Shown one piece after another: positions 1,607-5,110 of a stretch of DNA of 58,204 nt. The DNA comes from Nitrospira sp. (lineage in GTDB: Bacteria; Nitrospirota; Thermodesulfovibrionia; Thermodesulfovibrionales; SM23-35), in the NCBI GenBank assembly GCA_016873615.1, contig VGWX01000005.1:1-58204 (forward strand), read 5' to 3'. The position numbers and the translations under genes are program-made. Positions within the stretch are counted from its first letter, which is position 1. Each line of letters starts with the position of its first letter. A model generated the notes under the pieces. It was not told the origin of the DNA. It ran no database searches and saw only the letters and a list, made by a program, of their open reading frames with translations.

Positions 1607-2113
1607 TCAAAATCCCGGCGGGAGCGGACAGTGTATCTTTGCACGTTTTACAGAAGAATCACCGTTTACGAAATGCGCAGATATCTTAAAGAAGAATTCA
1701 CTAACAGAACCTGATAGAGTGCCATCTCTTTTTTCGCCCCAGGGCATGGTCTTTTCATTATTATTGATGGCAATGATCAAATATATATACCCTGGCGTCA
1801 TCCCTTTTATATCTTCCTCACTCGGCAAAGGCAAACCCTTTGTAGGGCCGAACTGTGTATGAGAATGGAAATCGCCTATTTTCTGTAATTTATTGAACCT
1901 CGCGAGAATTGATTCTATCTTCTTGTGATTCTTACGTTTATATTCAACCCCTTTATGCCTTCTGTCTGCTGTCTGGACGCTGAAAGCATGTTCAACAATA
2001 AACCGATCCTCAAGTTTATACCCGAGGAGAAAGCCAAAGCATTCCTTCTTATATACCTCTGCCGAGCTGAGAAGAAGATCAATAAAGGCATTCTCCGAGA
2101 GGTATACACGCAT
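1607..2113 (-). CDS. JAMM/MPN-family (Mov34) metalloprotease-like protein
   Basis: This 168-residue protein carries a JAMM zinc-protease signature: Glu24 in KECFGFLLG, His83-Ser-His85 in GDFHSHTQ, and Ser98..Asp101 in PSEED. JAMM proteins cleave isopeptide bonds or C-terminal tails of ubiquitin-like proteins; bacterial members often process sulfur-carrier proteins or pilin-like substrates. Here the gap between HSH and Ser is 12 residues, longer than the usual 7. No ThiS/MoaD-like or E1-like gene is adjacent. It starts 12 bases after the UspA stop, at the 3' end of the 5807-1607 operon. Confidence 0.8.
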   Translation of the reverse strand: MRVYLSENAFIDLLLSSAEVYKKECFGFLLGYKLEDRFIVEHAFSVQTADRRHKGVEYKRKNHKKIESILARFNKLQKIGDFHSHTQFGPTKGLPLPSEEDIKGMTPGYIYLIIAINNNEKTMPWGEKRDGTLSGSVSEFFFKISAHFVNGDSSVKRAKIHCPLPPGF

Positions 2114-2125
2114 AGCTTGTTATTC

Positions 2126-2572
2126 CTAATACATCGGAAGCCTTACCGTAAGTACCGGGCATGGCGCGAATCTTACAACCTGTGATGCAGTGCTTCCGAA
2201 AAGTAATCTGTCTATGCCCTTTCGACCGTGGGTAGCAATGATTACAAGGTCTATCTTGTTCTTATTAGCAAACTTTACTATTTCTTCATGAGGCACGCCT
2301 GTTGTAACGATGCGCTCGATGCCTTTAATTCCACTCAGTTCCTCCAGGCCAAACCTCTCGAGTTCCTTTTTAGCGCCCGTTTCAATATCCTTGTACATTT
2401 CATCCATTGATACATGCGGGACATACCAACCTGATGCCTTTGCTATGTCGTAAATAACATGCAGAATGTAAAGCTTTGATCCGTAACGTTTTGTCATGTC
2501 AATAGCATACTTCAGCGCTTCTGATGACCCCTCTGAAAAATCTGTCGGAAAAAGAATACTTTTGATTTCCAT
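2126..2572 (-). CDS. Universal stress protein, UspA family
   Basis: A 148-residue single-domain UspA protein starting MEIKSILFPTDFSEGS. The ATP-binding signature is visible near the C-terminus as ATHGRKGIDRLLFGST. An upstream in-frame ATG at 2644 would give a longer protein, but it lies inside the preceding gene; the ATG at 2570-2572 has GGGAGG in front and overlaps the preceding stop as TAATG, so it is chosen. Usp proteins are cytoplasmic stress or energy-state sensors; the specific role is unknown. Confidence 0.88.
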   Translation of the reverse strand: MEIKSILFPTDFSEGSSEALKYAIDMTKRYGSKLYILHVIYDIAKASGWYVPHVSMDEMYKDIETGAKKELERFGLEELSGIKGIERIVTTGVPHEEIVKFANKNKIDLVIIATHGRKGIDRLLFGSTASQVVRFAPCPVLTVRLPMY

Positions 2573-3576
2573 TATCCAACCTCCCTTAGGTATTTTGCTG
2601 CATTTTCCGGTGATGTGGGAAGGATATAAAATCCTGAACCCCATTCAAACCCACTTGTCCTTATAAGACGCGGCATTATCTCGAGATGCCAGTGAAAATC
2701 CTCACCGAGCGTATGCCAGTGATCTCTCCTTGGTATCATATTAGGGGCAGTATGAATGTAATAATTAAAAGGTGGATCACGAAAAATAATCCGTAGCTTT
2801 TTCAGTACAGACATCAGGATCAGCCCCATATCTTCAATCTCTTCATATGTAATTTCATTAAAGGCACAACAATGCCTTTTTGGAATAATCCATGATTCAA
2901 AAGGAAATTGCGCTGCATAAGGGCAAAAGGCAACAAAGTTTTTTGTTTCAAGGATCACCCTTTCCCCTGCCCTTAATTCTTCACTAATTATATCACAGAA
3001 TATACACCTTTCTTTATAGGTAAAATACTGTTTTGCATTATCGAGTTCGTCTTTTACTGTTTTCGGGATCATCGGTGTCGCCATGAGAAATGACAGGGGA
3101 TGAGAAAAAATCTCTCCGGCGTCTACCCCGGAATCTTTGTATATCAGAATATATCTGAATCTTGAATCCTTTTCAAGGTCGGCGATACGTTCCCTGTAGA
3201 GCGTTATAACCCTTATCATCTGCTCAATTCCAAGGTCTTCAGGCCTGACAGTATGCTCAGGTGATTCAATAAGGATTTCATTCGCGCCAATGCTGTTCAT
3301 TTTATCGTAGATCCCAACACCTTTCCGGCCCAAATCACCCTCAATCTGAAATACAGGATTAAGACTTGGCAGTGCCCGCACCCACCATTTGGATGAACGC
3401 GGCATTCTGACAGATGTTATCTCAGGAGGGGTCTCATATTCCCGGCCCGGGCAGAGGATGCAATTCCTCTCCTCCTGAGTCTTATATGAGAGCAGGTTAT
3501 ACTCAGAAGGGGCCTTTGATTCTGACATAACCGCAACCCATCTGCCGAGCAGGATGTCTTTTCTGAGTTCATGCAT
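2572..3576 (-). CDS. GalT-like HIT-superfamily protein lacking the catalytic histidine
   Basis: The 334-residue protein aligns by eye to galactose-1-phosphate uridylyltransferase along its whole length: RKDILLGRWV start, zinc-type cysteines Cys39/Cys42, a second CIFC pair at 191-194, and the C-terminal HIT half with HWHLEIMPR. The first HIT half, where GalT has HPHxQ and the second His is uridylylated, reads His159-Pro-Leu161-Ser-Phe163. The flanks fit (DAGEIFS before, LMATPMIP after), so both nucleophile and glutamine are gone. GalT activity is therefore unlikely. It overlaps coaX by 8 bases, with no galactose genes nearby. It may belong to a degenerate GalT subfamily of unknown role. Confidence 0.75.
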   Translation of the reverse strand: MHELRKDILLGRWVAVMSESKAPSEYNLLSYKTQEERNCILCPGREYETPPEITSVRMPRSSKWWVRALPSLNPVFQIEGDLGRKGVGIYDKMNSIGANEILIESPEHTVRPEDLGIEQMIRVITLYRERIADLEKDSRFRYILIYKDSGVDAGEIFSHPLSFLMATPMIPKTVKDELDNAKQYFTYKERCIFCDIISEELRAGERVILETKNFVAFCPYAAQFPFESWIIPKRHCCAFNEITYEEIEDMGLILMSVLKKLRIIFRDPPFNYYIHTAPNMIPRRDHWHTLGEDFHWHLEIMPRLIRTSGFEWGSGFYILPTSPENAAKYLREVG

Positions 3577-4333
3577 TTGAATTTCTCTTGTATAATATTC
3601 TTAGCCCTTCAAGTGTAAGATCAGGTGAAAAATCATGCTTTCTTTTCAGAAATTTTGAGATCAAACCCCCATATCCGCCGGTTATAACAACTTTCAGTTT
3701 AATATCAGCTTCTTTTTCGATCTCGTTGAGAATCCGTTCTATAGCGCCTGCTGTACCATAAAATAATCCCGACCGAATGCATCTGACGGTATTGTTGCCC
3801 AGGGCCGATATTGGCGGTTTCAAGTGAACCTCAGAAAGTTTTGATGTTCCCTGAGCAAGTGATTCATTCATCAAACAAATTCCCGGCATTATAGCGCCAC
3901 CGATATAAGTCGCTTTTTTATCAATAATGCTTATAGTTGTAGCTGTACCGAAATCCACAGCTGCAACAGGGCATTTATAATATTCATATGCTGCTGCTGC
4001 ATTTGCAATTCTGTCTGACCCCAGTTTCTCAGGATTTGGAATATTGAATGTCAGCCCTGTCCTGATCTTGCAACTCACAATGAAAGGTTCTTTACCTGTA
4101 AATCCTTTCAGGGCTTTCTGCAAGACCTTTGTATGTCCCGGTACGACAGAGGATATTATAATTCCTTCAGAGTTTTTTTCCATATAATTTTCTTTTATGA
4201 ATCCATTAACCAGCGCTGAATATTTTGCAGGGGACAGAAGGGGATGGGTATCCATTTTTTGCACAAGAAGGCCTGATTTAGTAAAAAAACCTATATTTAT
4301 TGTGGAGTTTCCGATGTCTATGGCTATAAGCAT
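3569..4333 (-). CDS. coaX: Type III pantothenate kinase
   Basis: A 254-residue CoaX, which phosphorylates pantothenate in the first step of coenzyme A synthesis. The ASKHA-fold motifs are present: DIGNSTINIGFF at the N-terminus, EKLGSDRIANAAAAY in the middle and VDFGTATTISII. The length is typical. Its ATG follows the birA TAG with no gap (TAGATG), and birA-coaX pairing is common in bacteria. This kinase type is not feedback-inhibited by CoA, from family knowledge. Confidence 0.93.
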   Translation of the reverse strand: MLIAIDIGNSTINIGFFTKSGLLVQKMDTHPLLSPAKYSALVNGFIKENYMEKNSEGIIISSVVPGHTKVLQKALKGFTGKEPFIVSCKIRTGLTFNIPNPEKLGSDRIANAAAAYEYYKCPVAAVDFGTATTISIIDKKATYIGGAIMPGICLMNESLAQGTSKLSEVHLKPPISALGNNTVRCIRSGLFYGTAGAIERILNEIEKEADIKLKVVITGGYGGLISKFLKRKHDFSPDLTLEGLRILYKRNSNA

Positions 4334-5110
4334 CTATCTCAATACTGTTAAGTCCCCTGAATGTATCCTTTTCATCTCACCTGAAGGCAGCATCAGGATA
4401 AGCATTCCCTCATCGTCTATAGCCTCAGCAAAACCTTTATAAGTTTCCTGACCGATAACCACTATCACTTCTTTACCGATTGTTGATGTGAGGCGTTGCC
4501 ATTCAGCAAGGAGAACTTCCCTCTTCATAGCTTTTAGGATCATATACCAATTGTTTATTTCATTCAGAATCTCAGCAACGATTTCTTCCCTTGAAAACAA
4601 TTTACCGGTCTCTTTTTTTACTGATGTTGCTATTTTTCTCACATCCTCCGGGAATGTATCGATATCTGTATTTACATTTATGCCGATTCCAATGACTGAA
4701 AAAAGAATTCCCTTCTGATCTGTTTTCAGTTCTGTTAGAATGCCGCCGATCTTCCTTTCATGGAATATCAAATCGTTCGGCCACTTTATTGAGATGTTCA
4801 GCCCTGTAGTCTTTCTCAGGGCATTTGCAGACGCCACTGCAGCCATTATCGTTATAAGCGTTGCATCCCTGGTCTCGATTTGAGGCTGCAGGATAATGCT
4901 CATATAAATATTTTCACCCGGGGGAGATACCCATACCCTGCCAAGCCTGCCCCTGCCTTTTTCCTGGGTATCAGCAAGAATAACAGTGCCTTCCGCAACC
5001 TGTTCAGCTAAATTCGAAGCAACAGTATTTGTAGATGCCACTTTTTCGTAAAAGAAGATTTCTCTTCCTATGCTGCCTTTGATTTTTGATTTTATATCAT
5101 CAGTTTTCAC
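4334..5110 (-). CDS. birA: Biotin--[acetyl-CoA-carboxylase] ligase
   Basis: A 258-residue biotin protein ligase with the ligase signature GRGRLGRVWVSPPGENIYMS and a KWPNDL segment. It makes biotinyl-AMP and transfers biotin to a carrier lysine. There is no N-terminal winged helix, so this is a class I enzyme with no repressor role. The start is GTG at 5108-5110, overlapping the upstream TGA as GTGA, so translation is likely coupled to the MBL gene. The C-terminal small domain (IGKEVIVVIGQETYKGFAEA) is complete. Confidence 0.92.
   Translation of the reverse strand: MKTDDIKSKIKGSIGREIFFYEKVASTNTVASNLAEQVAEGTVILADTQEKGRGRLGRVWVSPPGENIYMSIILQPQIETRDATLITIMAAVASANALRKTTGLNISIKWPNDLIFHERKIGGILTELKTDQKGILFSVIGIGINVNTDIDTFPEDVRKIATSVKKETGKLFSREEIVAEILNEINNWYMILKAMKREVLLAEWQRLTSTIGKEVIVVIGQETYKGFAEAIDDEGMLILMLPSGEMKRIHSGDLTVLR

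Follow-up and report, generated by a model that had tools for sequence, protein, structure and literature searches.

The best described relatives of the protein treated here are the GalT-type enzymes, which share a fold of two HIT halves, as seen in GalT of E. coli (1hxp, 1gup) and human (5in3) and in the Arabidopsis ADP-glucose phosphorylase At5g18200 (1z84, 2h39). In GalT, the first half carries an HPHxQ motif, in which the second histidine (E. coli His166) is the nucleophile that carries the nucleotidyl group in the ping-pong reaction, and the glutamine (E. coli Gln168, human Gln188) holds its phosphate. The substrate phosphate is touched by Arg28, Arg31, Gly159 and Ser161 of the E. coli enzyme, and the UMP by Gln188 of the human enzyme (PMC5081055). 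Zinc is held by C52, C55, H115 and H164 in E. coli GalT, and a further iron or zinc by E182, H281 and H298 (E202, H301 and H321 in human GalT; PMC5081055 gives other numbers for the E. coli pair). Two chains of this fold lack the nucleophilic histidine and still fold: 2h39 (HSGSQ), which was solved with bound ADP-glucose, and 6k9z (HPFSQ), the entry of which is titled a mutant. Both are laboratory variants, and their paired entries carry the histidine. Our searches of the open-access literature turned up neither natural GalT-type proteins without the catalytic histidine nor GalT pseudoenzymes.

Here, we describe a natural clade of GalT-like proteins that has lost this histidine together with further site residues, starting from a gene at positions 2572–3576 (minus strand) of a 58,204-nt stretch of Nitrospira sp. 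DNA (assembly GCA_016873615.1, contig VGWX01000005.1; hereafter the window). The open reading frame is genuine and full length, and its 334-aa product aligns with GalT-type enzymes from end to end, as the original prediction had proposed. At5g18200 is the best relative of solved structure (E 1e-55; 217 bits as profile), followed by bacterial and human GalT. Both of the predicted cysteine pairs are present: C39-x2-C42 (3451–3462, minus strand), which together with H108 and H159 matches the E. coli zinc ligands C52, C55, H115 and H164, and C191-x2-C194 (2995–3006, minus strand), the second-half pair that goes with H235 and H295 and lies on the CxxC of 1z84 and the CIFC of HinT. All of these residues are unchanged in 80 of 80 subfamily sequences, and equivalents of the E. 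coli ligands E182, H281 and H298 are present as well.

The first-site motif itself reads H159-P160-L161-S162-F163 (3088–3102, minus strand; codons CAT CCC CTG TCA TTT): the zinc ligand H159 (CAT, 3100–3102) is kept, the nucleophile is replaced by L161 (CTG, 3094–3096) and the glutamine by F163 (TTT, 3088–3090). In the alignment with At5g18200 (1z84), which spans residues 3–333, HPLSF sits on HSHSQ free of gaps; this rules out a shifted alignment, and no alternative histidine falls on the nucleophile column. The codons were read directly and His161 is missing from 34 distinct sequences, so the loss is real, as had been argued, and not a sequencing slip. An AlphaFold2 model built with 92 sequences, an approach that had been suggested earlier, gives a confident GalT-type fold (mean pLDDT 93, pTM 0.91; about 60 at residues 281–290). 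Foldseek ranks 1z84 first for this model (TM 0.84/0.90), followed by E. coli GalT, 6k5z and human GalT.

Judged from its sequence, the protein is by its defining features neither a GalT nor an ADP-glucose phosphorylase. Although the fold (TM of about 0.8 to the E. coli and human GalT structures) and the metal ligands agree, the nucleophile, the glutamine, the curated score and the pathway context do not. Two Pfam domains are matched by its second half, the C-terminal GalT domain (PF02744) with 45.3 bits over a cut-off of 29.2 and the HIT domain (PF01230) with 23.3 bits over one of 21.5; a match to the N-terminal GalT model was not reported. For the curated GalT family TIGR00209, the protein scores 91.7 bits, which is under the cut-off of 102.1, and the phosphate contacts of GalT are missing. 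At5g18200 is closest in both sequence and fold, with both CxxC pairs and the equivalents of H108, H159, H235 and H295 in common; however, its HSHSQ, its AGAS loop and the HWF of its second half correspond to HPLSF, AGEI and HWH in the window protein, and it lacks the WHTLGED insertion that the latter carries.

The pathway context was established in the window's own genome (2.9 Mb, 99.98% complete). Galactokinase (PF10509) was not found there, whereas in a control the search recovered it from 10 of 14 known genomes; the earlier remark had been that the operon holds no galactose genes. The genome encodes two further GalT-like proteins with intact motifs that pass the TIGR00209 cut-off: L002 (44% identity over the full length, HSHTQ, 108.4 bits) and L003 (36% identity, HPHSQ, 120.4 bits). 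The gene for L002 immediately precedes a glycogen synthase gene (glgA). This paralogue shares the metal ligands and the HWHxE of the second half with the window protein, but differs in having a complete first site (ERGKRP, PNKFP, AGAS, HSHTQ), no insertion, and glycogen synthase rather than coaX and usp as its neighbour. Intact GalT-like genes stand immediately before a glycogen synthase gene at L114:6733-9182, in the window's genome, and at L112:8001-10545, on a Zixibacteriota contig, and this adjacency would suit an ADP-glucose phosphorylase-like role for such annotated galT genes.

Relatives were collected at three scales. Among 20 genomes of the same family, 17 orthologues were found, the window's own counted, at about 65–100% identity. 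A scan of named genomes returned 80 loci, nearly all from Nitrospirota and many labelled Thermodesulfovibrionales. Across 200 genomes of the class, subfamily members score at least 395 bits and the glgA-linked type at most 372, a clear gap, and the subfamily is present in about 94 of the 200.

When the first halves of these proteins are compared, the first site proves to have been taken apart stepwise: first the phosphate contacts, then the glutamine, then the histidine. The glgA-linked paralogues read ERGKRP, PNKFP, AGAS and H[ST]H[TS]Q; the deepest subfamily members (the L093–L108 group) RPKKP, PSKFP, AGSA and HxHSQ; and the main HPHSQ members SKAP, PSFKP, AGAV and HPHSQ. Further members carry HPHS[ELFSK], and the window's clade HP[VILTA]S. 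In the window protein itself, the columns of E. coli Arg28, Arg31 and Ser161 hold a gap or Ser, Ala and Ile. In most HPHSQ members, the equivalents of these residues and the Asn of PN(K/R)(F/Y)P have already disappeared or become variable, which indicates that most of the contacts needed for transfer were lost before the nucleophile. H159, N/D148 and G154 are mostly retained. An initial count pointed to a distinctly higher rate of change in the first half than in the second, but this became weak once variable linkers were excluded, as first-half variation in the lost clade exceeds that of the second half only modestly (0.83 versus 0.70 bits, p = 0.21).

The second half carries the mark of the subfamily. 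A 7-aa insertion just ahead of the second HIT motif is found in the 80 sequences and is missing from the glgA-linked paralogues. Insertion and motif together span residues 279–299 (NMIPRRDHWHTLGEDFHWHLE; 2680–2742, minus strand) and follow the pattern NxxPRxxxWHTLGEDFHWHxE, in which all but one of the 80 sequences have R283, and all 80 have W287, H288, T289, D293, H295, W296, H297 and E299. Residues 286–300 form the lowest-entropy 15-residue stretch of the protein. A comparison with HinT-type proteins identifies a HIT domain in this half: its profile picks out the HinT of the same organism (37 bits), and CxxC, PKxH and H-x-H lie where HIT proteins have them. It reads H295-W-H297-L-E299, so that the middle histidine of the HIT triad is present, but unlike in HinT a Glu takes the third place of the triad, the column of the HIT Asn carries H275, and the insertion stands in place of the phosphate loop. 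H297 is the positional counterpart of the HIT nucleophile and also of a GalT metal ligand. In GalT of E. coli and human, the residues equivalent to H275, H297, E299 and E177 are ligands of a structural iron or zinc (PMC5081055), and conservation of these four therefore need not imply catalysis. They are just as invariant in the glgA-linked paralogues, whose first site is kept. H297 may serve catalysis, metal binding or both. The insertion is the least confident block of the AlphaFold2 model (block mean pLDDT 60), which would suit a loop that becomes ordered on a ligand, a metal or a partner subunit.

We judge the protein to be a conserved non-transferase GalT paralogue, a natural branch of the GalT fold, and tentatively favour the reading that its selected function is centred on the second half. 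It is predicted to be folded and probably metal-bearing. Having lost both the histidine to which the nucleotidyl group would be attached and the glutamine that would hold the phosphate of that group, it should be incapable of the ping-pong reaction of GalT. With the first half stripped step by step and the second half near-invariant (H295-W-H297-L-E299, E177, H275 and R283/W287/H288/T289/D293), the working site would now be a putative nucleotide- or metal-centred one, within the second half or close to it. It might bind, and may hydrolyse, a small nucleotide-like ligand, with H297 in the place of the HIT nucleophile and the insertion substituting for the phosphate-binding loop. A more specific version has the active site itself relocated from the first half to the second, with H297 of HWHLE and a phosphate pocket of R283, W287, H288 and D293 taking up nucleotide chemistry, and the old nucleophile thereby freed and lost; stated so strictly, we consider it unlikely.

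The original prediction had left room for binding of nucleotides or nucleotide-sugars without UMP transfer, or for a new activity. A non-transferring or new role is indeed the best reading of the sequences; binding of a UDP-sugar at the first site has become less likely, because the contacts listed above (the equivalents of R28, R31 and S161, and the Asn of PN(K/R)(F/Y)P) are gone or variable. Still, the first pocket could hold a nucleotide or nucleotide-sugar in a binding-only pseudoenzyme, acting as a sensor or regulator for the products of coaX and usp. The fold is intact, the nucleophile-less variant 2h39 (HSGSQ for HSHSQ) binds ADP-glucose, the mostly retained H159, N/D148 and G154 would fit, and CoaX and Usp both come from nucleotide-binding families. 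However, the residues that would hold the phosphate are the ones that are absent or variable, and positions 161 (V/I/L/T/A) and 163 (Y/H/F/Q/L/N/S) vary freely, unlike a binding site under selection, which makes this alternative doubtful.

The gene neighbourhood is very stable. Upstream lies coaX, encoding a type III pantothenate kinase (3569–4333, minus strand; PF03309, 185 bits), the final 8 bp of which run into the start of the GalT-like gene (ATGCATGA), preceded by birA, encoding biotin-protein ligase (4334–5110, minus strand; TIGR00121, 199 bits). Downstream lies usp, encoding a universal stress protein (2126–2572, minus strand; PF00582, 111 bits), the start of which overlaps the GalT-like stop as TAATG, behind a plausible ribosome-binding sequence. 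Next usually comes a gene for a JAB/MPN-domain protein (1607–2113, minus strand; PF14464, 32.5 bits), and JAB and TonB-like genes follow in most subfamily loci. The metal motif of the window's JAB/MPN protein, HSHTQFGPTKGLPLPSEED, has 12 residues from HxH to Ser, versus the usual 7. Among 76 named subfamily loci, counts taken from the neighbourhood table place coaX upstream in 72 and usp downstream in 69, and the exceptions are mostly contig ends or belong to the deepest clade. In the deepest members L093, L095, L096 and L104, usp does not lie beside the gene; in this deepest clade, coaX and the GalT-like gene are separated by a response-regulator receiver gene (L095:4236-4670, L104:7615-8001), and usp is not in its usual place. 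A check proposed earlier was whether HPLSF-type proteins form a clade that stays beside coaX and birA: the lost sequences do fall in one clade, with one His-bearing genus nested inside, and the gene does adjoin coaX and birA. The order birA-coaX-galT-like-usp is, however, kept irrespective of the motif, HPHSQ members included, and we reject operon linkage as a mark of nucleophile loss.

This stable order, with its overlapping genes and its conservation independent of the motif, would also fit a structural role. Fold and surfaces would then be all that the protein needs in order to serve the universal stress protein or the JAB protein as a subunit or partner; the low-confidence insertion in the monomer model could then be an interface loop. 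The invariant residues, however, are of the polar kind expected in catalysis (H, D, E, R, W) rather than of surface patches, and usp is absent beside the gene in the deepest members named above. We therefore regard a scaffold as quite improbable. If instead the second half holds the selected function, as we favour, the GalT-like protein would be made together with the universal stress protein, given the overlapping genes, and would act in the same process.

How the nucleophile was lost can be followed in the motif column. His161 is present in 46 of the 80 distinct subfamily sequences and replaced in 34 (V in 15, I in 9, L in 8, T and A in one each). Of the 46 sequences with His161, 25 have Q at position 163 and the others L, E, F, S, K or another residue; in the 34 lost sequences, this position is mostly Y (12), H (9), F (5), Q (4) or L (2), and N and S also occur. 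In a sister lost clade, the motif is often HP[VI]SH, with a histidine two residues beyond the nucleophile position, at that of the glutamine (L045, L051, L053, L060, L063, L064, L069, L074 and L080); the window protein has Phe there. In trees built without columns 161 and 163, all 34 lost sequences fall within one Nitrospirota clade of 36 members (SH-aLRT 99), with bootstrap/SH-aLRT support of 100/98 in a reduced, careful tree. Intact HPHxQ in close homologues of the same genus would have spoken against the prediction, and none was seen: within the clade, His at 161 occurs only in another genus, g7 (L009 and L010), which reads HPHSL. A single loss without return, with the lost sequences as a clade that excludes g7, is rejected (AU p = 0.003). 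Either His161 was regained in g7 or it was lost many times elsewhere, and regain is the simplest history, requiring two changes. The g7 codon is CAC, versus CAT in most intact relatives, which fits regain weakly. Elsewhere, an Omnitrophota contig (L111:8001-10024) carries tandem GalT-like genes, the first with HCRSQ (nucleophile His replaced by Arg) and the second with intact HSHSQ, apparently a separate, independent loss.

These histidines raise the question of residual chemistry at the first site, run without the usual covalent intermediate, either by direct attack on the substrate or through another nucleophile, such as the His163 of part of the sister clade. That His163 occurs in nine lost sequences, and that one genus has regained or kept His161, speaks for it, and in the HPHSL genus the first pocket may not be dead. 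In the window protein, however, position 163 is Phe and the motif offers no nucleophile besides the zinc ligand H159 and S162; within the clade, positions 161 and 163 are highly variable, and the phosphate contacts are lost. For the window protein, we see only a slim chance of such chemistry.

The gene is under purifying selection and not decaying. Pairwise omega is 0.04–0.15 in the lost clade versus 0.03–0.16 among intact members, and the frames of lost relatives are full length and free of stops. Decay or sequencing error, which the loss of catalytic residues taken alone would fit, can practically be discounted in the face of these frames and omega values, the invariant metal ligands and the loss in 34 distinct sequences.

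What this locus offers is a whole clade with its intermediates alive in relatives: proteins with a complete site, without phosphate contacts, without the glutamine, without the histidine, and with the histidine again in one genus. Such a series is suited to testing how one enzyme becomes something else. It is also a warning that some Nitrospirota genes annotated as galT are not galactose enzymes.
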